Of a stretch of 64,000 nt of DNA, positions 840-64,000 are shown in pieces; within the stretch, counting starts at the first letter, position 1, and each line of letters starts with the position of its first letter. The stretch is taken from contig JADLSH010000155.1 in NCBI GenBank assembly GCA_016169945.1, forward strand, positions 3,045,501 to 3,109,500, read 5' to 3'. The notes below the pieces were generated by a model. It worked only from the letters and a program-made list of their open reading frames with translations, was not told where the DNA came from and ran no database searches. Source of the stretch: Trachythela sp. YZ-2020. Taxonomy: Eukaryota; Cnidaria; Anthozoa; Malacalcyonacea; Clavulariidae. Both the position numbers and the translations under genes were made by a program.

Positions 840-2590
840 ATGGCTGCCGGTCGTGCTTCGTGTAGCTCCGATGAAAATCAAATAAATCAGCTTCAAGTTA
901 CCTTCTCCCACATTCTATTAAAGCACGAAGGCTTCATAGAATATAACAACGACAACAAAGTAAAATGGACCGGCGGCTTAGAGAAACTAAAGAGTCTTGT
1001 AGTCGATTTGTTCGGCGATGAAGGCAAATGGAGCTCGCCTGGTGGGAGTGCGAAATTGTTTCGAAGTAATCGGATAAGCATTACTTGGTATGCTAACAAG
1101 GGATGACTCTTATTTCAAGGGGAATTGGGAAATATACTGAAGGAATTAATAGTGGACTTATTCAAGAATAAGGCAACAACGAATTTGATGGATAAAAGCG
1201 ACGATCTCGTCACAGAGTCAAAGTGTTATGACCGTTTATCCGACGAATTAGCTAGCCGAAGTTAAGCTGAGCGTTGAAAATATGTCAAGCGTTATGAATA
1301 GACTTTACGGCGATGTCTCCCGTACAGTTAATTACATCAATAGTCAAGACTTAAACTCAAAGAAAGCGGTGTCTGAATTTGGTATTCAAACGGACATAAA
1401 CCCGGTGAGTAGAAATCTTGCTCATATTAATAGTCAAGACATAATCTTAAAGAAGTCGGTGTGTGAGATTGGTACACAAACGGACATAAACACGGTAAAT
1501 GAAAGTCCTACTCAGAATAAAGTAAAAGTGTGCATACCCAGTTCGTATTACGAGCTTTCAACCGATCTTGAAGGAACAAAATTAGACATAGTAATAATGG
1601 AACGCAAAATTACAAGTGGGGTACGTGGTAACGGTCAAGCAATAGATCAAATTCGTGCCGAAATGGCTGATATCAGAGAGGAACAGCAGAAAGTCGTACA
1701 ACACGATAAAGCAAATATAGAGCTATTAACAGAGCAAAATAACGCTCTTTCTGATAAAGTAAATACTCTGCATTCAGATTTGGAAAAATTGAAAGTAAAT
1801 TTACATAAAGCTGATCAAAAACATGTTTATGATCATTCAAATCAGCGATGCGTACCTAAATTGGCTAAAACAACAAAAGGTCACGAACCTGAAAATCCCC
1901 TACCACAACTAACAAGTAAGCAACAGGTTAATGGCCCAGCTGACTCGCCTGTCAATTGCGCCCAAATCAGTGAAACTTTGCACCCGGTGACAAAACAAAA
2001 CAGCGAGACTACTGATGAGGCGAAACAAACACATTTACATGAAGTCGGACAAAAACAATTATTAAATAACTCCAAAAGCGTCACCAACAACAAAGGTTTA
2101 AGCGATAAATTAAGCCCCGATTCCGTAAATAATAAGCAGAATAATGGTCACCCTTCCGCCAGTCAGAAAATCACTCACAAAACTGTCAACGGAGAAACTA
2201 GAGATACTGTCCCGCGACCGTCACCACCGGGGTGGCTGAAATGCTTGCCTTTGATTAATATACCGAATAACGAAACAAATAACAAAAGCGTCATCAATAA
2301 CAAAGGTTTAAGGGATAAATTATGCCCCGATTCCGTAACTAATAAGCAGAACAAAGGTCACCCTTCCGCCAGTCAGAAAATCACTCACAAAACTGCGAAC
2401 GGAGAAACTAGAGATACTGTCTCGCGACCGACACCACCGGAGTGATTGAAATGCTTGCCTTTGATTGATATACCGAATAACCAAACAAATAACAACTCGA
2501 ATTTTCGTGGAAATTTTGGAAGGCGGAAAACTCGTCGGAGATCTCGCCGTTGGAAGTATACGGATATGGTGAGCGAAATGACGATATCAT
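840..2590 (+). pseudogene. LINE-A ORF1 protein, frameshifted
   Basis: The ATG at 840 opens a frame (MAAGRASCSS...) that breaks near 1104, continues in the next frame to about 1263, and returns as the long frame from 1282. The three pieces abut, so I read one decayed ORF1. The 1282-2445 part has two NSQD-LKK repeats near its start and a heptad-rich stretch (about residues 130-185) that should form a coiled coil, the usual trimerisation element of ORF1 proteins. Near the end lies a 70-codon in-frame duplication. A Trp-to-stop change at 2443-2445 cuts off a strongly basic tail (R/K cluster near 2518-2560) that overlaps the ORF2 start and was probably the RNA-binding C-terminus. Confidence 0.65.
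2065..2490 (+). repeat. 210-bp in-frame tandem duplication in ORF1
   Basis: Two copies begin near 2071 and 2281, spaced 210 bp (exactly 70 codons). Both encode the NNKGL-DKL-PDSV-NKQN-GHPSASQKITHKT block followed by a proline-rich segment. A partial third start follows near 2440-2490. The copies differ by scattered substitutions, including the TGG-to-TGA change in the second. Confidence 0.85.
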
Positions 2591-5263
2591 AACGGAAAGC
2601 CTAATGTCCTTAGCCCCCAAAATCGACGAAGTCCGTTTGTTCGTTTCCAAACATAATCCAGACCTCGTTTTCATAACAGAAATGTGGCTCAAAGAATCTA
2701 TCGGAAACAATCATGTCGAATTACCGGGTTATAGTATTAAAAGACGAGACCGCAGCTCAGCCCAACATGGAGGTGTTTGCTTTTTCTCTAAGGAGTGTAT
2801 TAAGGTTAAACAACTTCAACAATTTGAAAGTCCTAACCTTGAAGTTCTCTGGATGCAATTAAGACCTTCCAGGCTCCCAAGAGGAATCCCATGTATAGTA
2901 GCTGCAACAGTTTACCATCCCCCAAGTGCAAATGATAACGAAATGTTGGAATATTTATCAAAATCTTTTACTGACATCGAGGGTCTCTTCCCCGGATGTG
3001 GTATTATCATTGCTGGAGATTTTAACCACTTAAATATCAAGAATTTGTCTCGCCAGTTTCAATTGAAGCAATTAGTGCATCTGCCTACTCGTGGCACGAA
3101 TACGCTGGACCTCGTCTTAACAAACCTGCACTCTTTCTACGAATCTAAGTCCGCCACATCCCACCCACCATTTGGCCTTTCTGACCACTGTGTCATAACA
3201 TTATACCCAAAGCAAAGAGATCTCAATTCTACTACCAAGAAAGTAATCTATAAAAGAGACACTCGACCTTCTCGAAAACAAATGCTTGGCAAATACCTAA
3301 GCCAAATTGACTGGCACCTCTTTGACCAGCTCACTAGTTGTAGTGAAAAAAATGACGTATTCACCGGAATCATCATTACAGGTTTAAACTATATCACGCC
3401 TGAAAAAGCAGTCACCTTCCATCGTAACGATCCACCATGGATTACTGAAGATCTCAAACGCTTAATTAAACAACGACAACGCGCCTTTTCCTCAGGTAAC
3501 TCTATCGCTTTCAAGTTATATCGGAACAAAGTAAATAAGGAGAGAAAATCCTGTCGTGCTAAGTTTTACATCTCCAAAGTAGAACATTTGAAACAGTTGA
3601 AACCTAAAGAGTGGTGGCGTGAGGTGAAACGCCTCTGTGGCATGACCCCAGTTTCTAATCCTACAGATTTCTCTTCCCAGCTCCAATTAGAAAACACAGA
3701 TCATTTGTCACCACTAGATTTAGCTAATCTAATCAACAACACCTTCCTCGAGCCTATGCAAGACTTCTGCGCCCTTAGCGACACGTTCACGGGAACTGCT
3801 TCACTGACCGAAGACCTTCCAATAAATGCGTTAACCACACCTGAGTTAATTAATCATAAGCTCAATTTACTTAACCGTTCTAAAGCACCAGGCCCAGATG
3901 GCATTCCTAATTGGATCCTGAAAGAATTTGCAGAAATTCTATCAAATCCTATCTCCATCATTCTCAACTATTCTTACTTAGAACAAAAACTGCCAAGCGT
4001 TTGGAAACAAGCTAACATCATACCCATCCCGAAAAATAAACCAATCCGTGATATAAACAAGAATCTTCGACCTATTTCACTAACTCCAGCCTTATCAAAG
4101 TTAGCTGAAGACATCGTAATCGAAAAATACGTCTCTCACGCAGTTTTGGAGGTAGTCAATCAGGATCAATTTGGCGGAATCCCTAAATCATCAGCAACCC
4201 TAGCCCTCATCAACATTATTCACACATGCGCCCAAGCGACTGACGGAACTGGTGCATCCGTGCGTGTCCTCTTGTTTGATTACCGAAAAGCCTTCGACCT
4301 GATTGATCATAACATTTTGGTTAACAAAATCCGGAAGCTTTCAATTCCAATACCTATTATCAATTGGATTATCGACTTTTTAACTTCAAGGGAACAACGA
4401 GTTAAACTCGCCAGGGATTGTTTCTCCGAATGGGGAAAAGTTCCTTCCGGAGTTCCTCAAGGGACAAAATTAGGTCCTTGGCTCTTTATTCTCATGATAA
4501 ACGATTTGAATCTAACTGATTTCCAAATGTGGAAATACATTGACGACACTACCGCTGCTGAAGTAATACCAAAAGACTGTCACAGTACTATCCAAACAGG
4601 TGTAAATCAATTAGAAGACTGGACTGTGCAGAATAAACTCCAACTTCAAATTCCAAAATGTAAAGAACTGCTGTTTCAGTTCACGAGAGTTAGAATCCCT
4701 TTCCCCAGTGTTGTCCTAAGTTCTGGAATTCTTGAATTAGTTGAACAAGCCAAAGTTTTGGGACTGACAATCAGTAACGATTTGAAATGGACCAAACATG
4801 TTGCGGAAATGATCAAGAAAGTTAACAAACGAAAATATTTCATCATACAACTGAAACGTGCAAAAGTGCCCGCCAAAGAAATATTTAATTTTTACTGTAC
4901 TTGTGTAAGGCCTGTCTGGAGTACAGTTGTGAAGTCTTCCATTTTGCCTTGACTGACTATCTTAGTGACGCCATTGAGCAAGTCCAAAGAAGAGTCACAT
5001 CAATTATTTTCCCAGGCATGCCGTATTCTGTCCGTTTGCAAAAGTGCAACCTTATTCCCCTCAGCGAACGTCGATACAACGCCTGCTCAAAACTTTTCAA
5101 ACAAATCATCAACGATCCACATCATAAATTATCATCCCTTCTGCCAGACCGTCACTCTGCGAACTATGATCTCAGGAAAACTCCCGAGTTTCAACTCCGA
5201 AAGACAAAAACAGATAGATTTTTAAAAACGTTTATTCCGGCCTGCATCAAAGAATTTTCTTAG
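2550..5263 (+). pseudogene. LINE-A ORF2: APE endonuclease plus reverse transcriptase
   Basis: An 800-codon frame runs to 4952. The endonuclease half shows the ITEMWL motif near the start, IIAGDFNH near residue 155 and GLSDHC near residue 210, the metal and catalytic blocks of APE-type nucleases. The reverse transcriptase half shows SKAPGPDG, LLFDYRKAFDLIDH, PSGVPQGTKLGPW and the catalytic box KYIDDT. A one-base deletion near 4911 shifts the frame; the C-terminal 120 residues continue at 4901-5263 with the LPLSERR-type C-terminal domain of this LINE group. No RNase H domain is visible. The enzyme would nick target DNA and copy the element RNA there; this copy is broken. Confidence 0.85.
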
Positions 5264-30788: not shown

Positions 30789-31565
30789 TTATGAGTCAGT
30801 AGCATCTTCATCATCACCATCATCATCATCATCATAGTAATGTTGCCTGTCTTCTAGCAGACGCTTGAACTGATATTTTCTCTTTTCTACTGCGGAATAT
30901 AAAGCTTCGTCGCGGTCGAGGAAATCTACGTCTATCAAATTATCTCTTGTCTGCATAATCTTCTGGTGAGTTGGATCTTTTTTCATGTGTGACATCCACA
31001 GCAGCCGGTCTACATAAACATCTTCTAGTTCTTTTGTCAGTTTTGGAAGAAGTGCTGAAAACGATTGCCTCTTAGCTTCAACCTCACTAAAACCTTCATT
31101 TTCAATACACGCAACGTTTTCTTGAAATTCATCCAAAAGTTGCAGTTTTGCTTCATGTATCAACGTTTGTCAGGGGTCGTAGTCTTCTTCATCTTCGCTG
31201 GTTTGGTGATCCCCGTCTTCGCTTTCCTCTTTGCTGTCATTTTCCTCGCTGTTCTCATTTTCTTCGCTGCTGCTCTCTTTTTCTTCGCTATGGTATTCTT
31301 CCTCATTATTATCATCACTATCGAAAATATCGCCGTTGTGATATTCGGAAGAGGTAGATGCCCCTTCATCGAAATGATCCATTCTAGCTCTTTTTGCTCT
31401 GGGAATAATGTCGTGGTCTTCTTCGCCAGCGCAAGATGACTTGACGTTATTCAGATAAACACGTCTTTCTTCACTTGATAACCGGTGAATGTCTGCCAAA
31501 TGATTGGATAGTTTGCAAAGGTTTTTCTTTCCGCACAGAGGACAGTCTTTACGCGTTCGAGGCAT
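30789..31565 (-). pseudogene. zinc-finger/acidic protein, left-arm copy, nonsense-broken
   Basis: Near-identical inverted copy of the gene at 31934-32710. The ATG at 31565 opens the same CPLCGKKNLCKLSNHLADIH zinc finger and acidic region. At 31172-31170 the Trp of the DPW motif is TGA, which ends the frame; the C-terminal half continues at 31163-30789 in the same frame. No other break is seen, so the loss is recent. Confidence 0.82.
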
Positions 31566-31933
31566 GGAGCGAAATGACTTCTCTTTTTTCAGGGTACACA
31601 GTTTTTAATGATTATGTCGAACAAACACGTCCTTGAAAAAGCCTGTAGACGTGTTCATACGTCCTGTAAGACTATTCCATGGCGATACCTACACATTTTG
31701 TCAAACGGGACCTCGGGACGTCGCTACGGGACGCATTTTAACGCGTCCCGACGTCCCGTAAGACTGTCCCGTAGCGACGTCCCGAGGTCCCGTTTGACAA
31801 AATGTATAGGTATCACCATGGAACAGTCTTACGGGACGTATGGACACATCTACAGGCTTTTTTCAAGGACGTGTTTGTTCGACATAATCATTAAAAACTG
31901 TGTACCCTGAAAAAAGAGAAGTCATTTCGCTCC

Positions 31934-32710
31934 ATGCCTCGAACGCGTAAAGACTGTCCTCTGTGCGGAAAGAAAAACCTTTGCAAACTATCCAATCATT
32001 TGGCAGACATTCACCGGTTATCAAGTGAAGAAAGACGTGTTTATCTGAATAACGTCAAGTCATCTTGCGCAGGTGAGGAAGACCACGACATTATGCCCAG
32101 AGCAAAAAGAGCTAGAATGGATCATTTCGATGAAGGGGCATCTACCTCTTCCGAATATCACAACGGCGATATTTTCGATAGTGATGATGATAATGAGGAA
32201 GAATACCATAGCGAAGAAAAAGAGAGCAGCAGCGAAGAAAATGAGAACAGCGAGGAAAATGACAGCAAAGAGGAAAGCGAAGACGGGGATCACCAAACCA
32301 GCGAAGATGGAGAAGACTATGACCCCTGGCAAACGTTGATACATGAAGCAAGACTGCAACTTTTGGATGAGTTTCAAGAAAACGTTGCGTGTATTGAAAA
32401 TGAAGGTTTTGGTGAGGTTGAAGCTAAGAGGCTATCGTTTTCAGCACTTCTTCCAAAACTGACAAAAGAACTAGAAGATGTTTATGTAGACCGGCTGCTG
32501 TGGATGTCACACATGAAAAAAGATCCAACTCACCAGAAGATTATGCAGACAAGAGATAACTTGATAGACGTAGATTTCCTCGACCGCGACGAAGCTTTAT
32601 ATTCCGCAGTAGAAAAGAGAAAATATCAGTTCAAGCGTCTGCTAGAAGACAGGCAACATTACTATGATAATGATGATGATGGTGATGATGAAGATGCTAC
32701 TGACTCATAA
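31934..32710 (+). CDS. C2H2-finger, acidic-linker protein of unknown role
   Basis: 258 codons. Residues 8-28 are a C2H2 finger (C-x2-C-x11-H-x4-H, in CPLCGKKNLCKLSNHLADIH). Residues about 75-130 are a Glu/Ser/Asp-rich linker. Residues about 131-240 form a helical domain beginning DPW and holding LLPKLTKELEDVYVDRLLW, KKDPTHQKIMQTRDN and DEALYSAVEKR; the end is acidic. A diverged paralogue of the helical domain lies at 56.1-56.6 kb. The finger suggests nucleic-acid binding. The gene sits in the right arm of the palindrome, reading outward. It may serve the element or be a captured host gene. No known family is assigned. Confidence 0.75.
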   Translation: MPRTRKDCPLCGKKNLCKLSNHLADIHRLSSEERRVYLNNVKSSCAGEEDHDIMPRAKRARMDHFDEGASTSSEYHNGDIFDSDDDNEEEYHSEEKESSSEENENSEENDSKEESEDGDHQTSEDGEDYDPWQTLIHEARLQLLDEFQENVACIENEGFGEVEAKRLSFSALLPKLTKELEDVYVDRLLWMSHMKKDPTHQKIMQTRDNLIDVDFLDRDEALYSAVEKRKYQFKRLLEDRQHYYDNDDDGDDEDATDS

Positions 32711-58262: not shown

Positions 58263-58477
58263 AGTGTAGTTATTGGTTCAAACAATGGCGCCGAAATTCA
58301 TGTTCGGAATCAGGAATCGAGATTCATGTTCGGATTAATAGCAGCTCTCAAATCACATGACGGAGCTCGTGTGTGGCCACATGACTTCTTTCCACCAGTT
58401 TCGAGGCTTGTGATTGTGCAGGTATTTAACTTTCTTTTGATAGTAAATGCTGCGACAACGTTAGTAGTAATGTACGA

Positions 58478-58687
58478 CACTATACGTCACTTTTCCCATA
58501 TCGCATAATCGCATACCTTTTTACCATCATCCAAAAAGTGACGTATAGTACCACATAAATATTCTGACGTCACAACCAAAAAGTGACGTAAAAAGTGACG
58601 CATAGTCCCTCGCTCTCCTCCCTTCGGTCGTCGTCGCTCGCGCTCGCATGTATCGCTCACGTCATAAATATTCTGACGTCACAATCC
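58478..58687. promoter_or_regulatory. cluster of CRE/ATF-like sites and an inverted repeat
   Basis: TGACGT-type sites lie at 58484-58490 (acgtcac), 58539-58545, 58565-58572 (full TGACGTCA), 58584-58590, 58596-58602, 58658-58665 and 58674-58681 (full). ataaatattctgacgtcaca occurs twice as a direct repeat (58556 and 58665). actatacgtcactttt and aaaagtgacgtatagt form an inverted pair at 58479-58550. The cluster directly precedes the virus-like gene block and could be its promoter/enhancer or left end. Confidence 0.55.
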
Positions 58688-58689
58688 AA

Positions 58690-58910
58690 AACATTTCGCC
58701 AAAAGTCTCGCTACGCCGCTAGGCGCGTTCGCTCGCTCTCGCTCGTAACCCAAAACACTATGTACAAAACACTATGTACAAAAATCTACCCCTCGCTCAC
58801 TACGTTCGCGTTGCCTCGCTAACGCCGCTAGCGATAGTCGGAGGCGCGGTCGTCGCTAACGCTCGCTCTCGCTCGTCCCAAAACATTTCTCGAACATATA
58901 AATAAAATAA
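58690..58910. other. GC-richer leader before the gene block
   Basis: Repeated cgctcgctctcgctcg words (58728 and 58862) and a doubled acactatgtacaaa (58756-58780) precede the first ORF. No gene. It may belong to the same terminal/regulatory region as the CRE cluster. Confidence 0.45.
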
Positions 58911-59432
58911 ATGGCACTTAGATTTGGATACTCAAATGATGAACCAAACTTCATCCACAACAAAGCACTCAGACCACCGCGCTCTTTACAATACAGCTTT
59001 ACATATGATTACATTTCAAAAGTAACATACAGAACACCAATCTCTGTTAGACTTGGCTTTCCTGTGGGTTATATTTATGGGCCAGGACTTACTGAGGACT
59101 CTAAACTAACCCTCTTGACACACATATTTGACAATGACACTGTGATAAACGCTCTTACAGCAAGATATACGCTGCGAATTTACGACACTAACGAGGTAGC
59201 CACAGATGTGGACCTAAAAGACATAGACCTGATGACTAAAAGAGTTGGACAGTCAAAAGAGAAAAATATCCTCCATACTAGTACGCAACCCCCGCATTTA
59301 TGTAGTGTTTGCGTACCTAATAATTTAAACATACACATGCAAAGAGGTTTTAAAAAACATTACATTTTAAAACCTGCAGTAAACAACACATCCTTGTGCA
59401 ATAATCCTTGTGCAATAATCCTTATGCAATAA
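58911..59432 (+). CDS. unknown protein, first gene of the virus-like block
   Basis: ATG at 58911; 173 codons, no intron. The first 125 residues look structured and beta-rich (SLQYSFTYDYISKVTYRTPI, SVRLGFPVGYIYGPGL, then charged RIYDTNEVATDVDLKDID). The last 45 residues coincide with short tandem repeats and a segment similar to 59840-59885, so the tail may be poorly conserved or the true stop shifted. No signal peptide or membrane segment. I do not recognise it; a virion or accessory protein is only a guess from context. Confidence 0.55.
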   Translation: MALRFGYSNDEPNFIHNKALRPPRSLQYSFTYDYISKVTYRTPISVRLGFPVGYIYGPGLTEDSKLTLLTHIFDNDTVINALTARYTLRIYDTNEVATDVDLKDIDLMTKRVGQSKEKNILHTSTQPPHLCSVCVPNNLNIHMQRGFKKHYILKPAVNNTSLCNNPCAIILMQ

Positions 59433-59490
59433 TCCTTGTGCAATAATGTTTGGGAGTAATCCTTGTGCAATAGTCCTTGTGCAATACTCT
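59388..59490. repeat. tandem ccttgtgcaataat repeats
   Basis: Six to seven units of about 14 bp at the end of the first ORF and beyond. The same gtgcaat/attacacaagg theme recurs on the other strand at 62257-62350. Confidence 0.75.
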
Positions 59491-59539
59491 CTATAATGTT
59501 GGGTTGTTAAAAAACTTGGACTACCGCATATGGAACAAG

Positions 59540-59807
59540 TTAGTTGGACCTAATAATTTTACACCCCAGGTTTGTTTTACACAAATAATTACCGTTTAAA
59601 TGTGTGTATTCGAACAGTTTATGCTGGGTCTCGTACTTAATGCTTGGATACTTATCTATTATGTATTCCAACACAAGGCTTTCCAAGTATTTAATTGCAC
59701 AGGACACCTTCTCCGGAATACATACTAACTTTCTGGTATATGTATTGCGTTTGGTTTGTTGGATCCATAGACAATCTTCCCCTGTGTTTACTAACAAAAA
59801 ACTTTGT
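59540..59807 (-). CDS. unknown minus-strand frame without ATG, likely a 3' exon
   Basis: Open from just after an in-frame TAG (59808-59810) to 59540: YKQSFLLVNTGEDCLWIQQT, then a helical part SCAIKYLESLVLEYIIDKYP and HKLFEYTHL. There is no ATG near its start, but the TAG belongs to ttttttttactag, a good splice acceptor on this strand, so it may be a spliced exon. The first exon was not found; candidates lie between 59880 and 60080. Confidence 0.4.
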
Positions 59808-59889
59808 TTGTACTAGTAAAAAAAAACACACTACATTATGTAGGGTTTTAGTACCTAGGATATTTCCCAGACACAAGGGGTTTTAAAAA

Positions 59890-59975
59890 TATTTACAGCA
59901 CCCTGTGTATCTTTAAAAAAGTAGATACAGGGTAAGTATTTACAGCACCCTGTGTATCTTTTAAAAAGTAGATAA
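59890..59975. repeat. 45-50-bp direct repeat
   Basis: tatttacagcaccctgtgta plus tctttaaaaaagtagata occurs twice (59892 and 59937). It lies between the minus-strand frame and the first coiled-coil gene. Confidence 0.8.
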
Positions 59976-60083
59976 TTTACACTGCAAACATCTTGTCCCA
60001 AACACTCCTTGGTAAACAGGTGCAAAACATGGATACAAATCGTATATTTTTGTCTACAAAACACAAAATAATATATTACAAAA

Positions 60084-60500
60084 ATGGGGGTTATTAATTA
60101 TATTACCAAAAGAGTTACCAAAAAGAAAACAAATACCAGCAATGGGGACTTACACACTCTGGAGCATTGGGTGCGTTTTGCGGAGGACCAATACAGGAGG
60201 GCTAACAAGCTACAAATGGAACTGGATGTTACCTCCAAGTACGAGAAAAAGTACAAGGAAGCGGATGCCCGCGTACAAAGTCTTTTAGCGAAAATAACAC
60301 AACAATCCATGGATGCATTGGACTTGGAGTCCAAAGTTAAAAACCTGGAAACAGAGAACCACAACTTAAAGATGGACTTGGAGACAAATGGAGTTAGGAG
60401 CGAGATACTTGGAACCCTCGTATTGGAACTGGATTCCACAACAAAGGATCTTTCGGATTTAAGGGAAAGTGTTAAATCCAAAAGAGAAAGTTTAGTGTAA
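60084..60500 (+). CDS. coiled-coil protein A1 of the virus-like block
   Basis: ATG at 60084; 138 residues. Basic N-terminus (MGVINYITKRVTKKK), then a near-continuous heptad pattern from about residue 30 to 135 (ANKLQMELDVTSKYEKKYKE, QQSMDALDLESKVKNLETEN). Paralogous to the gene at 60692: both share MG-I, TLE-W, RANKLQ-ELD, QQS--LDL-S-VK-LE. It stops 5 bases before the 34-residue peptide gene. Probably a structural or scaffolding protein; function unknown. Confidence 0.75.
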   Translation: MGVINYITKRVTKKKTNTSNGDLHTLEHWVRFAEDQYRRANKLQMELDVTSKYEKKYKEADARVQSLLAKITQQSMDALDLESKVKNLETENHNLKMDLETNGVRSEILGTLVLELDSTTKDLSDLRESVKSKRESLV

Positions 60501-60505
60501 GTAAA

Positions 60506-60610
60506 ATGGATACATATTTTCTTTGTTGTCTTGTAAGACTTATTACAAATCCAGGACTACTTACACTTGGATGGTTTTTGTTCGTTTGTTATTCCATAAG
60601 ACAAGGGTAG
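60506..60610 (+). CDS. 34-residue membrane peptide p1
   Basis: ATG at 60506, stop at 60608-60610; 34 residues. The centre LITNPGLLTLGWFLFVCYSI is hydrophobic and long enough for one membrane span. The gene at 63020 encodes a 34-residue relative (identical at LITNPGLLTLGWFLF and CYSIR) although many codons differ at third positions, which argues that the frame is translated. Both copies sit directly after a coiled-coil gene. Confidence 0.72.
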   Translation: MDTYFLCCLVRLITNPGLLTLGWFLFVCYSIRQG

Positions 60611-60691
60611 GCCTGTGTGTGTGTGTTACGCTAGTGGGTTACAAATTACAAATTGTATAACTAACTTTATCCCCTGTTACAATAATAACAA

Positions 60692-60967
60692 ATGGGTATT
60701 ATTTCCTGGGTCCAAAAGAGGAGAAACAAAACACCTTACACATTGGAGTATTGGATACACATAGGGGAGGAACAGCACAAAAGAGCTAACAAACTGCAAG
60801 CGGAACTGGACATTGCCTTGGAGTACAAAAGGAGGTACTATAATGTATTACAACAGGAACAGAAACTCCTTGTACAAATAGCACAACAATCCTTGGAGAC
60901 ATTGGACTTGGCATCCAGAGTTAAGGACCTAGAAATTAAAAATTACAAACTGGGAATAAAAAACTAG
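60692..60967 (+). CDS. coiled-coil protein A2, paralogue of A1
   Basis: ATG at 60692; 91 residues. Same plan as A1 but shorter at the C-terminus: MGIISWVQKRRNKTPYTLEY, RANKLQAELDIALEYKRRYY, QQSLETLDLASRVKDLEIKN. The pair is a tandem duplication with p1 between the copies. Followed after 28 bases by the next gene. Confidence 0.75.
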   Translation: MGIISWVQKRRNKTPYTLEYWIHIGEEQHKRANKLQAELDIALEYKRRYYNVLQQEQKLLVQIAQQSLETLDLASRVKDLEIKNYKLGIKN

Positions 60968-60995
60968 GATTGTGGACTATTATTATTTGTAACCA

Positions 60996-61208
60996 ATGTT
61001 AGGTTACAAATACTTAGCGGATACCCCAGGTTGTTTTTATAAAATGGCTTTAATAATCCAAAAGCGGACGGAGAGAATATTGGACCGTTTAACAAGACTG
61101 GAAGAGAGAACTTGTGCTAATACCAAACAGAAAAGCAATGCAGTGGTGGAACCACACGAGCCATACGAACACGATCCAAACAACCTGTGGACGATGGTAA
61201 AAAACTAA
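60996..61208 (+). CDS. small unknown protein with helical segment
   Basis: ATG at 60996 (a second ATG at 61044 would remove 16 residues). 70 residues; the centre is a charged amphipathic helix (KRTERILDRLTRLEERTC), the end is acidic/polar. It stops 5 bases before the ATG of the next gene, as in operon-like compact viral genomes. Not recognised. Confidence 0.6.
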   Translation: MLGYKYLADTPGCFYKMALIIQKRTERILDRLTRLEERTCANTKQKSNAVVEPHEPYEHDPNNLWTMVKN

Positions 61209-61213
61209 GTGTT

Positions 61214-61648
61214 ATGGACATAGCATGTGTTAACGAGATAACAGATGTCGTGTGCAACACAAAGTCCATGTTTTTATTTTTTGGCCTTGGTGTAAAAACC
61301 AAGGGATTGTACAGGATTAGGGGAATGGATTCCTACACGAAAATAACAACACACATCGCAAGTATGCATTTGGAAGTTAAAAACCTAGCTAGTAGGAACA
61401 AACTATATCTGTTTATGTCCACAGGGGATGGTTCCAAGTTAAAAAGCCTATGTCGTGGTGTAACAAAAAATGGTGGGCAAAGTATGGAGTTAAAAAACCA
61501 GTGGTTCCAGGATATTAAACACATAAGCATCGAGTTAAAAAACACACAGGACCTTGTTGTGGATGTATATGTTAGGATGTTAATACATACTGTGGATCCA
61601 TTGGAAACAAGAACAACCCTTTGGACACCTAGTATAATTTTACGTTAG
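61214..61648 (+). CDS. unknown 144-residue protein
   Basis: The first ATG is at 61214 (the frame is open upstream to 61187 without another ATG). Residues MDIACVNEITDVVCNTKSMF, LFFGLGVKTKGLYRIRGMDS, and a C-terminal half rich in beta-like segments (HISIELKNTQDLVVDVYVRM). No membrane span or zinc ligand. The stop at 61646-61648 overlaps the stop of the minus-strand gene, so the two genes converge with no spacer. Not recognised. Confidence 0.6.
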   Translation: MDIACVNEITDVVCNTKSMFLFFGLGVKTKGLYRIRGMDSYTKITTHIASMHLEVKNLASRNKLYLFMSTGDGSKLKSLCRGVTKNGGQSMELKNQWFQDIKHISIELKNTQDLVVDVYVRMLIHTVDPLETRTTLWTPSIILR

Positions 61649-61854
61649 GACCTTATTGGCAAGTCCAATGTATCCCACTCGATATCCACACCATAATCCC
61701 TTTCCAAGTCCATACAAAAACTCCTACACACCATGTCCAATGTGTCCACTGCACAGTCCGCCTGCGGGTTACCACTGTTTTCCAATGTAATCCATACATT
61801 TTGGTAGGCACAGATAAATTCCTGTAATTTGGTTACAAACATTTCCAAGTCCAT
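61645..61854 (-). CDS. small unknown acidic protein
   Basis: ATG at 61854; 69 residues, acidic, with three Cys (FICAYQNVWITLENSGNPQA, then DTLDMVCRSFCMDLERD). It is the only minus-strand gene between two plus-strand genes and overlaps the stop of the left neighbour by 4 bases. The frame is free of stops over its whole length in a crowded region, which supports it; no family recognised. Confidence 0.5.
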   Translation of the reverse strand: MDLEMFVTKLQEFICAYQNVWITLENSGNPQADCAVDTLDMVCRSFCMDLERDYGVDIEWDTLDLPIRS

Positions 61855-61898
61855 TTAGTTTTTGTTTGGACCTAACGACAAACAAAAACATAAAACAA

Positions 61899-62240
61899 AT
61901 GGCCACACTACCCACTTATATGGATGCTTGGAGGTTTGTAAACAAGAATCCTCCGCAAGCACCAAAGCTAACGAAAGACCAACGAGCATATTGCGAGTAC
62001 TGGGAGGAAAACTTAACAAGTACCAGTAGTAAAAACCCGGATACAAAAAGAACTATTAAGAAATATGGTGCTGTTTACAACAAGTGTAACAAGACCTATA
62101 ACTTTTACAGGTGTAATGTATGGTGCGACATTAAAGGAAAGTACATTAGTCCTTTTAACAATGCTGTTAAACAAAAGTTTACCGAGAATTTTAAAGAGTA
62201 TGTTTATGGTCGAGGTGTAAATATGGTACCCTGGGAATAA
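61899..62240 (+). CDS. unknown 113-residue basic protein
   Basis: ATG at 61899 (MATLPTYMDAWRFVNKNPPQ); 113 residues, rich in Lys, Tyr, Asn and aromatic residues, with Cys in KCNKTYNFYRCNVWCDIKGK. It may bind nucleic acid by charge; no motif proves it. The start lies 44 bases from the divergent ATG at 61854, so the two promoters must overlap. Confidence 0.6.
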   Translation: MATLPTYMDAWRFVNKNPPQAPKLTKDQRAYCEYWEENLTSTSSKNPDTKRTIKKYGAVYNKCNKTYNFYRCNVWCDIKGKYISPFNNAVKQKFTENFKEYVYGRGVNMVPWE

Positions 62241-62256
62241 ATGTTTAATCCAGTGT

Positions 62257-62350
62257 GTGCGAGAGTAAAAAATTATTACACAAGGTCTTTTTTTAAATTA
62301 TTACACAAGGATTACACAAGGTCTTTTTAAAATTATTACACAACAAGTTA
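62257..62350. repeat. attattacacaaggtcttttt repeats
   Basis: Three units of about 30 bp follow the gene at 61899. T-rich cores could act in transcript ending. The theme is related to the repeats at 59388. Confidence 0.65.
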
Positions 62351-62362
62351 TGTTATGTTATT

Positions 62363-62523
62363 ACATACACACACACATATACACACATACACACACACAC
62401 ACCGAGGCATTTGTAACCTAATAAGGATTACAAATGGTAACAAAAGGTTTGTTTTACATCCAAACACACATACACACATGGTACACACAAGCACACACAC
62501 AATACACACAATACACACACATA
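62363..62523. repeat. CA-rich microsatellite leader
   Basis: Blocks of acacacac and atacacac interrupted at 62403-62460. It reads as a His-Thr repeat in the frame of the next gene but precedes its likely ATG. Confidence 0.85.
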
Positions 62524-62528
62524 AAGTA

Positions 62529-63005
62529 ATGGATACATTAATGCGAAAATCTGTATTAGAGTTGCGGAGTATTGGGAAAAGTCTTGGGTTTACAAATACA
62601 AGGAGTTATGGGAAACATAACAAAGAGGACTTAGCAAGAAGAATACATGGACAAGTTAAAAAGGAGGATCCAACAGATCCAACCAATAGTATTGTTCCAT
62701 CCAATAGTAATGTTATCTCCTTAATGGAAAAGGAGATAACTTTGCTACGAGAAGCAGTAAAATCCTTAAAGCAGGACATAGTGGAACTACGAGACACCCT
62801 AATGGAAATTAAAAAAAGTAAACCATTGGAAATCCAAGAGTTAAAAGAGGTGTTTGGAACACATAAAAAACAGGTTCAAAACCAATGGGATGTATTACAT
62901 GTGGCCGTTATAAATAATTTAGAGACTTTACAGACAATGGAGGAAGAAAAAGAAGAGAAGGAACTAAACAAGGCGATAAAAAAGAAGCAGGAGGGTTGGT
63001 GGTAA
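62529..63005 (+). CDS. SAP-like, coiled-coil protein of the virus-like block
   Basis: ATG at 62529 chosen because everything upstream in frame is CA repeat. 158 residues. Residues 1-42 (MDTLMRKSVLELRSIGKSLG, then NKEDLARRIHG) match the helix-extended-helix pattern of SAP/HeH domains, which bind DNA. Residues 62-150 form a long coiled coil (MEKEITLLREAVKSLKQDIV, then heptads to EEEKEEKELNKAIKKKQ). Fifteen bases later comes the second 34-residue peptide. Confidence 0.68.
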   Translation: MDTLMRKSVLELRSIGKSLGFTNTRSYGKHNKEDLARRIHGQVKKEDPTDPTNSIVPSNSNVISLMEKEITLLREAVKSLKQDIVELRDTLMEIKKSKPLEIQELKEVFGTHKKQVQNQWDVLHVAVINNLETLQTMEEEKEEKELNKAIKKKQEGWW

Positions 63006-63019
63006 GGTATGTTAAGTAA

Positions 63020-63124
63020 ATGGATTCTTATATTATCGGTTGTCTTTTAAAACTTATAACTAATCCTGGGTTACTTACACTTGGATGGTTTTTGTTTGCT
63101 TGTTATTCTATAAGACACTCCTAA
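63020..63124 (+). CDS. 34-residue membrane peptide p2
   Basis: ATG at 63020, stop 63122-63124. MDSYIIGCLLKLITNPGLLT then LGWFLFACYSIRHS: one hydrophobic span with a short charged end. Relative of p1 at 60506 with the same length and position behind a coiled-coil gene. Synonymous differences outnumber replacements in the shared core. Confidence 0.72.
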   Translation: MDSYIIGCLLKLITNPGLLTLGWFLFACYSIRHS

Positions 63125-63156
63125 GTTATACCTTGGAACTTAGAGAGAGAGTTGTA

Positions 63157-63183
63157 ATTATTAAACTTGTAAAGTTTAATAAT
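63157..63183. terminator. perfect 12-bp-arm hairpin between convergent genes
   Basis: attattaaactt, spacer gta, aagtttaataat. It lies 32 bases after the p2 stop and 19 bases before the 3' end of the minus-strand gene at 63203, exactly where a two-way transcription end is needed. The role is inferred from position. Confidence 0.4.
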
Positions 63184-63202
63184 GGTTTTGGAAAAATATG
63201 CC

Positions 63203-63388
63203 TTAATCCTCCTCTGGATAATGGCAAACAGTATATGTAGGGTCCAACTCGTATTTATAATCCGGATCCATAGCAAGGCGTTCCTCTATTAGTTCCTCCT
63301 CCGTAAAACCACGAATTTGTACATTCTCGACTAATATACCATTTACCCAACGTAAAAATCTTGGTTTAGTTTGTTTTATGCTATGCAT
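63203..63388 (-). CDS. small unknown acidic protein
   Basis: ATG at 63388; 61 residues. Basic start (MHSIKQTKPRFLRWVNGILV), acidic second half (FTEEELIEERLAMDPDYKYE) and a short aromatic end. Last gene of a minus-strand group of three. Not recognised. Confidence 0.55.
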   Translation of the reverse strand: MHSIKQTKPRFLRWVNGILVENVQIRGFTEEELIEERLAMDPDYKYELDPTYTVCHYPEED

Positions 63389-63446
63389 ATTTATTTAACT
63401 TTTTTTTACCCACAAGGTAAGAAGATTTGATTTGTATAATGGTTCC

Positions 63447-63716
63447 CTATTGGTAATGTCGTTTGTCTCCACAGTGTTTTCCTGGAACACATGCACAGTC
63501 GAACTCCTCCATAATTCTGTTTCCAAGACATATGTTTCTAAGTTCTTTCACATTCCCATTGTTTTTAAGTTTTAACAACTTTTTGTACTTGTTTGGAAGA
63601 GGTATGTCGTCCTGTGTTTTTGGTTTACATTGTTCTAAAACAAGTTGTTGGAGTGTTTTTGGCTCCATAGTTCTTACTTTTAATTTTGGAGGTATAAATG
63701 CCGATCTAACATCCAT
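63447..63716 (-). CDS. unknown basic protein with C-terminal Cys cluster
   Basis: The true ATG is probably 63716 (MDVRSAFIPPKLKVRTMEPK); the frame is open further up only from a non-ATG codon. 89 residues; Lys/Leu-rich middle (NKYKKLLKLKNNGNVKELRN) and an end with FDCACVPGKHCGDKRH, which could hold a metal ion. It overlaps the end of the upstream gene by 37 bases. Confidence 0.55.
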   Translation of the reverse strand: MDVRSAFIPPKLKVRTMEPKTLQQLVLEQCKPKTQDDIPLPNKYKKLLKLKNNGNVKELRNICLGNRIMEEFDCACVPGKHCGDKRHYQ

Positions 63717-64000
63717 AGTATTTTCCTTTTTAAATGTCTCATTTCGCACAAGACTTTGTAAACAGCATCCTTTTTGTGGTACTTTGCAATTGTACCATCC
63801 CCACACAAAACAGCTATTATTTTTGTTTCCGGAACCCAAATTTTATCTATTACACCACCATTAATACTATCGTTGTATATTATAGGGAGTTTGTCTAATG
63901 GTAGCAGGTGCCACCACTCCTGGTCTTGGACAACAGTAACATTTCTGTATTTTTTTCTAGTTACCTTATTTGTTTGTATCTTACCAAGTCGTATGGAACA
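63680..64000 (-). CDS. unknown protein, runs off the right edge (partial)
   Basis: The minus strand is open for 107 codons from the edge to TAA at 63682-63680. Residues include TRKKYRNVTVVQDQEWWHLL, PLDKLPIIYNDSINGGVIDK and IWVPETKIIAVLCGDGTIAK. The start lies beyond the window. The W-W and beta-like pattern suggest a globular protein; no family recognised. Its 3' end overlaps the next gene in another frame. Confidence 0.6.
   Translation of the reverse strand, partial: CSIRLGKIQTNKVTRKKYRNVTVVQDQEWWHLLPLDKLPIIYNDSINGGVIDKIWVPETKIIAVLCGDGTIAKYHKKDAVYKVLCEMRHLKRKILWMLDRHLYLQN

Follow-up and report, generated by a model that had tools for sequence, protein, structure and literature searches.

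The locus described here raises the question of why short, almost intronless frames crowd together on both strands within an otherwise spliced and transposon-rich genome. The frames occupy positions 58911–64000 of a 64,000-nucleotide stretch from the anthozoan Trachythela sp. YZ-2020 (contig JADLSH010000155.1, here C151:3045501-3109500; C numbers denote contigs), and we refer to the whole stretch as the window. The initial annotation had interpreted the block as the left portion of an endogenous virus, or of an unknown large element, that continues past 64.0 kb. The genome sampled comprises 578 Mb in 396 contigs, and the rightward continuation of the window is designated L009, in which position x corresponds to window position 63800 + x. 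We find that the packed block belongs to a composite mobile element of 13.5 kb, of which it is the left part and in which a core element, termed X, lies between arms of the Maverick type. In our judgement X is probably, though by no means certainly, a transpoviron-like satellite with captured Maverick ends, which would be copied, packaged and integrated by Maverick enzymes.

The contig does continue, as had been anticipated, and the element ends at window-equivalent 71997 with matching terminal repeats and a 6-bp duplication. The composite is 13,535 bp long (window 58463 to window-equivalent 71997; 58457 to 72003 including the duplications), and AGTAGTAATG forms the element start after AACGTT at both outer ends. 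The outer repeat is seen as an inverted match between window 58457-58831 and L009 8203-7824 (417 columns, 76% identity, 79 gap columns), and its first 119 bases are nearly identical between the two ends. When the flanks are joined with a single AACGTT, they give one continuous match to the long interspersed nuclear element (LINE) protein encoded at window 2493-4952; each flank by itself matches this protein up to the junction only. The window composite has a clean empty site in a LINE. Because AACGTT stands at both ends and the LINE is restored across the joined flanks, the 13,535-bp element was inserted as a unit.

Duplications of 6 bp are present in all three composites for which both outer ends were read. 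The window AACGTT is palindromic, and TACGTT (C26) and TACGTC (C351) are each repeated directly. The matching outer duplications indicate that each composite entered the chromosome as one unit. The composites are 13,535 bp (window), 14,878 bp (C26) and 13,920 bp (C351) long, although X spans 7.7–10.1 kb. A strict packaging size was considered and set aside; it would fit these three lengths, but a small-X composite on C141 is ~7 kb long. The outer repeat of the window element contains many GCTCGCTC-like motifs and TGACGTCA sites, to which proteins might bind at the Maverick terminus.

The core of the window composite spans 7,743 bp, from 59253 to window-equivalent 66995, and has inverted repeats of its own. 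Specifically, the left inner repeat (Table 1) matches inverted L009 2875-3195 at 319 of 321 positions, and the termini read TCAAAAG. The homology of the left arm to gene a, the outermost gene of the arm, ends where X starts: frame a (58911-59432) is Maverick sequence only up to about 59252, so the last third of the frame is not gene a. The truncated gene is 92% identical over 381 columns to an inverted full copy in the right arm (L009 7538-7161), where the second, inverted gene a occupies L009 7016-7543. To judge from its sequence, X stands apart as a discrete selfish element: it is bounded by inverted repeats of its own and has no recognisable PolB, integrase or capsid.

The same core recurs elsewhere in the genome. 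DNA of genes b and c is found at 30 rows, and a place encoding the large protein of X lies no more than 15 kb away in 16 of the 22 b/c places compared (the exceptions are two places on C310, two on C273, and C353 and C279). The ends of X are seen at 10 elements (the window on C151, C26, C351, C367 twice, C239, C50, C221, C147 and C124), all with TCAAAAG-type ends followed by a purine-rich stretch, a pattern found nowhere in the 58 kb of the remaining window. The terminal bases TCAAAAGAGAAAAAT are the same on C26, C351 and C367, and close variants stand on C50, C239, C221, C147 and C124. Inner repeats measure 232 bp at 99.6% identity on C351, ~0.5 kb at 94-97% on C26 and 364 bp at 99.5% on C124, and the full-size copies measured span 7.7-10.1 kb.

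X is found between the ends of different Mavericks, namely the collagen end in the window and on C50, and PolB ends on C26 and C351. In many cases one end flanks it twice, in inverted orientation, with one of the two copies truncated. On C26, a Maverick PolB end stands on either side of X as two inverted copies (99.7% alike over 779 and 726 bp); the left copy contains all of PolB and the right its last part only, and TACGTT lies outside both sides. C351 shows the same arrangement with a different PolB end (the copies agree at 96.7% over 843 bp and at 100% over 397 bp) and with TACGTC as the outer duplication. In both composites PolB is present only as part of a captured arm. Overall, eight of the 10 elements directly adjoin Maverick-type coding sequence at one end at least (C151, C26, C351, C367 twice, C50, C124 and C239, the last counted on a PolB match of 25.2 bits, just below the cut-off of 25.8); C221 has no assigned flank, and C147 adjoins a frame that is LINE-like by eye. 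Defective adenovirus genomes have duplicated ends of a similar kind, with other DNA enclosed by one viral end and its inverted copy. The composites share with them the inverted copies of one end, but differ in that the core is independent, with conserved termini and selected genes.

A plain insertion of X in a Maverick gene was dropped, because the arms on C26 and C351 are inverted copies. An ordinary transposon, for example of a rolling-circle type with inverted repeats, could nevertheless have jumped into chromosomal Mavericks and gained its palindromic arms by later recombination between repeats. Such an origin would explain the sharp X termini, the inverted repeats of X and its position inside Maverick genes, and the very many Maverick copies in the genome could recombine. 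We nonetheless think it unlikely, since matching 6-bp duplications are kept at three composites and the empty site in the window is clean, and rearrangement would normally destroy both. Furthermore, no duplication is visible around X, and its flanks are not the two sides of one uninterrupted gene.

Other arrangements of X were also seen. At C367:163726-176584, two inverted X copies surround one PolB gene and form a large palindrome. Paired b/c regions are present in inverted orientation at C273:1299285/1308729 and in direct orientation at C310:838645/842898, with no listed large-protein match within 15 kb.

The right arm of the window composite encodes BRO-N (77.4 bits), a packaging ATPase (Pox_A32 match of 59.3 bits, cut-off 22.8), a collagen-like protein (118.7 bits) and gene a. 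The viral nature suggested for the block is thus borne out in the ATPase, BRO-N and collagen-like protein; the locus is not one virus but X nested in Maverick arms. Likewise, extending the contig in search of viral hallmarks, as the initial annotation had advised, turned up the packaging ATPase; the window copy has no recognised gene for a capsid, PolB, integrase or protease. In particular, the scanned window and L009 proteins have no Pfam match to PolB or integrase, tblastn with the PolB and integrase of other copies finds neither in L009, and Pfam recognises no capsid or adenain-type protease in the window copy (nor does it match the capsid-like proteins of neighbouring Mavericks). The collagen-like protein (L009:5746-6924) and gene a (L009:7016-7507) have a common start, MALxFGY, perhaps a shared anchor to the particle, to go by the motif.

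Both window arms end in gene a followed by the outer repeat, which is the right-end order of a locus on C179 (collagen, gene a, terminus AGTAGTAATG; L073), whose full gene a is 94% identical at the amino-acid level. The C179 locus also encodes an rve-type integrase (30.3 bits, just below the cut-off of 32.6), BRO-N and a 406-aa protein of unknown family; of its two ends, the right one was read. We assign it as a Maverick on the basis of the integrase-type match, BRO-N and an end order equal to that of the window arm. By gene order and sequence, the window arms derive from the collagen end of an abundant Maverick family. A first look gave 705 candidates for the ATPase of this family in the genome; the 150 scored are 86-100% identical in amino-acid sequence, 148 of them have no stop, and the median pairwise DNA identity of the ATPase gene across 30 of these loci is 91.6%. 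The family is a plausible helper for X.

The nearest PolB, integrase and protease genes are in a separate Maverick ~1.6 kb to the right of the window element (L009:9801 to L011:8080, window-equivalent 73601 onward; 18,280 bp including a LINE). This complete Maverick has a target-site duplication AAGCAC, PolB (128.9 bits), an rve-chromo integrase and a C5-protease-like protein below the cut-off, and its termini, which start AGTAGCTTATCC, are of the same kind as those of the window composite. Compared with Mavericks (Polintons, adintovirus-like) in general, the composite has the outer termini starting AG, the long outer inverted repeats, the 6-bp duplication and an A32-type ATPase in its arm. 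Unlike an autonomous Maverick, it has no recognised protein-primed PolB or rve integrase and no recognised protease or capsid, and half of it is a foreign core with termini of its own.

One could therefore regard the whole 13.5-kb element as a single degenerate Maverick lineage that has lost PolB, integrase and capsid and in which the X genes are accessory, given that the packing, the outer repeats, the ATPase and BRO-N are all Maverick-like. This appears quite improbable to us, because the inner termini of X are conserved and X recurs between the ends of different Mavericks, and because no X protein has a match in the two other Maverick loci read (the neighbour, L010-L011, and C179, L043).

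The frames, gaps and overlaps described for the block are present as claimed. Specifically, e and f overlap at exactly 61645-61648, j and k overlap by 37 bases at exactly 63680-63716, and 5 bases separate d from e. ATG frames of at least 50 aa, picked longest first, cover 3,918 of the 5,090 bases. In 200 dinucleotide shuffles the same measure averages 945 and never exceeds 1,938, about half the observed value. When the remaining window is divided into 12 equal tiles, one exceeds the block (4,275 bases), and that tile has LINE frames at 1252-4952. The ratio of nonsynonymous to synonymous substitution rates (Ka/Ks) is 0.05-0.28 in 16 codon comparisons between copies within the same genome, which took in b, c, f, g, i, both 34-aa frames, the large protein and the ATPase; for the X genes it is 0.09-0.28. 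Purifying selection acts on X genes. With open-frame cover above the shuffles and low Ka/Ks, the frames of the block are genuine genes; weak frames between 59540 and 60064 gained no support.

Table 1. Features of the composite element within the window (window positions)
Feature	Position	Strand	Remarks
Left copy of 6-bp target-site duplication, AACGTT	58457..58462	.	Right copy just outside window-equivalent 71997
Left outer terminal inverted repeat, Maverick type	58463..58900	+	Starts AGTAGTAATG
Truncated gene a of Maverick arm	58911..59252	+	Interrupted by X
Left inner inverted repeat of X	59253..59573	+	Starts TCAAAAGAGAAAAAT
Gene b, 138 aa, coiled-coil-like	60084..60500	+	Ka/Ks 0.28 and 0.20 against C155 and C310 copies
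Gene t1, 34-aa peptide, one hydrophobic stretch	60506..60610	+	Paralogue of t2; Ka/Ks 0.22 over 34 codons
Gene c, 91 aa	60692..60967	+	Ka/Ks 0.20 and 0.16 against two copies
Gene d, 54 aa	61044..61208	+	Open frame only
Gene e, 144 aa	61214..61648	+	Open frame
Gene f, 69 aa	61645..61854	-	Ka/Ks 0.09-0.14 against three copies
Gene g, 113 aa, 2-cysteine adaptor domain PF08793	61899..62240	+	Ka/Ks 0.18-0.20
Gene h, 158 aa, coiled-coil-like	62529..63005	+	C26 and C155 copies 31-35% identical
Gene t2, 34-aa peptide, hydrophobic stretch	63020..63124	+	Paralogue of t1; within Ka/Ks comparisons
Gene i, 61 aa	63203..63388	-	Ka/Ks 0.10 against C26 copy
Gene j, 89 aa	63447..63716	-	50% identical stretch on C26 (L064)
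Gene k, C-terminal part	63680..64000	-	With upstream frame window-equivalent 65215-66399, one large protein in relatives

Genes b and c are paralogues with 45% identity, and t1 and t2 are predicted to be tiny membrane peptides. The suggestion to run profile searches on each frame yielded one assignment: across Pfam, PHROGs and NCBIfam, only the 2-cysteine adaptor of g exceeds a curated cut-off among the window frames. The PF08793 match scores 22.4 bits in the window, 28.2 in the C26 copy and 16.8 in the C310 copy (under the cut-off of 22), and none of three shuffles matches the family. Iridoviruses and ascoviruses share this domain with X; a single small domain is not enough to class X among these viruses. 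IMG/VR, queried with e, g, h, partial k, the ATPase and alignments A2 and A3, gave no confirmed relative, with records of the same or a very near genome possibly excluded; a phage collection gave no match to frames e and a, a protein database held no relative of e or g, and the Protein Data Bank (PDB) gave no useful match by sequence.

The large protein is split into two frames in the window copy and forms one open frame on C26 (1,108 aa) and C282 (1,156 aa). Its matches fill 99 rows in the genome, at 27-100% identity, and the protein database contains two relatives. A structure model of a 351-aa domain built from 19 sequences has a pLDDT of 81.6 (an earlier model from 3 sequences, pLDDT 42, was not usable), and four of its five best Foldseek rows in PDB are the rolling-circle initiator 4cij, with a weak score. 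The tyrosine of a KIY.K motif is invariant across the 19 aligned sequences. The modelled N-terminal domain appears to resemble rolling-circle initiators, and the large protein may have initiator activity. The order of its conserved motifs looks similar, as we take it, to that of the RepSTK1 / pT181 kind, whose initiator family is presumably PF02486. Unlike those initiators, which the domain approaches in its best Foldseek matches, the protein exceeds 1,100 aa in relatives, and the three members scanned have no Pfam match to PF02486. No helicase or polymerase was matched by Pfam in the window frames or in the 858-, 908- and 905-aa stretches of three relatives.

A parvovirus-like or giant-virus remnant, considered as the core, was dropped once the continuation and the copies were read. 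Most X products have no match, which leaves room for a diverged capsid among the unassigned ones; X would then be an independent small virus that captured its Maverick arms by chance. We give this little credence, because the largest product of the window X besides the initiator-like protein is 158 aa, which is short against known double-jelly-roll capsids, and because the packaging ATPase was not found in the core, its gene sitting in the arm.

The proposal that we favour is that X is a satellite of animal Mavericks working like a transpoviron, and it rests on the service that Maverick PolB, capsid and integrase would give to the composite. X would replicate by its own protein, acting as initiator, in cells with an active Maverick, on which it would depend, and would be joined to Maverick termini outside the chromosome. 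For a composite with two Maverick termini, the Maverick could then supply copying in trans through its PolB, packaging through its capsids and insertion through its integrase. In a variant, the composites would persist through interference with Mavericks, acting as defective genomes that shield the host, much as has been suggested for the virophages of protists; the shared ends would bring competition for polymerase and packaging, and the X genes are under purifying selection. We hold it to be a slim prospect as the explanation, and it is compatible with the satellite proposal rather than opposed to it.

The transpovirons of mimiviruses are small, capsidless, linear-type and virus-associated; their inverted repeats are a few hundred bases long, and they encode a large replication-type protein and a tiny membrane peptide (PMC7031253, PMC3671162). 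X is similar in having no recognised capsid, in its repeats (232-364 bp where delimited, ~0.5 kb on C26), in its large protein and its small predicted membrane peptide, and its 7.7-10.1 kb compare with about 7 kb. Transpovirons encode a PolB-helicase protein (PMC11071308), whereas the large protein of X has no helicase or PolB domain in Pfam. In addition, X resides in an animal-type genome, joined to Mavericks. Transpovirons are found in virus or virophage particles. We do not file X as a transpoviron, because it is without the helicase that defines them.

More broadly, and with rather less confidence, X could be the first of a class of animal transpoviron-like hyperparasites, that is, linear, capsidless replicons that would capture Maverick termini extrachromosomally, travel in Maverick particles and enter the germ line via Maverick integrase. 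A second, smaller class (~3.3 kb, consisting mostly of a single initiator-like gene and ending in termini of the same type) might do likewise. We found no published description of Maverick satellites or nested Rep elements in a search that covered subscription journals thinly. That the packed genes belong to a small selfish element between copies of Maverick ends suggests that virus-like elements in animal genomes may be parasitised in turn. Particle formation and cell-to-cell movement of animal Mavericks are an open question (PMC8097293). If the satellite proposal is true, an element that retains Maverick ends and not much more, and whose genes are kept by purifying selection, would point indirectly to Maverick replication, packaging and integration in trans in animals, and would extend the virophage/transpoviron type of relationship from protists to animal genomes. 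The inner and outer termini are exact sequences to seek in other species.

Small X elements were seen in several settings. The one on C124 is 3,266 bp long, and a small-X region on C141 lies between two different ends of the window-neighbour Maverick type, with one inner end seen. Between the window element and the next Maverick, a fragment at L009:9045-9298 is 70-73% like part of the small X elements. Elsewhere in the window, 31170-31604 and 31895-32710 form an inverted pair of frames for one protein, and a similar frame, judged by eye, adjoins the small X end on C124.

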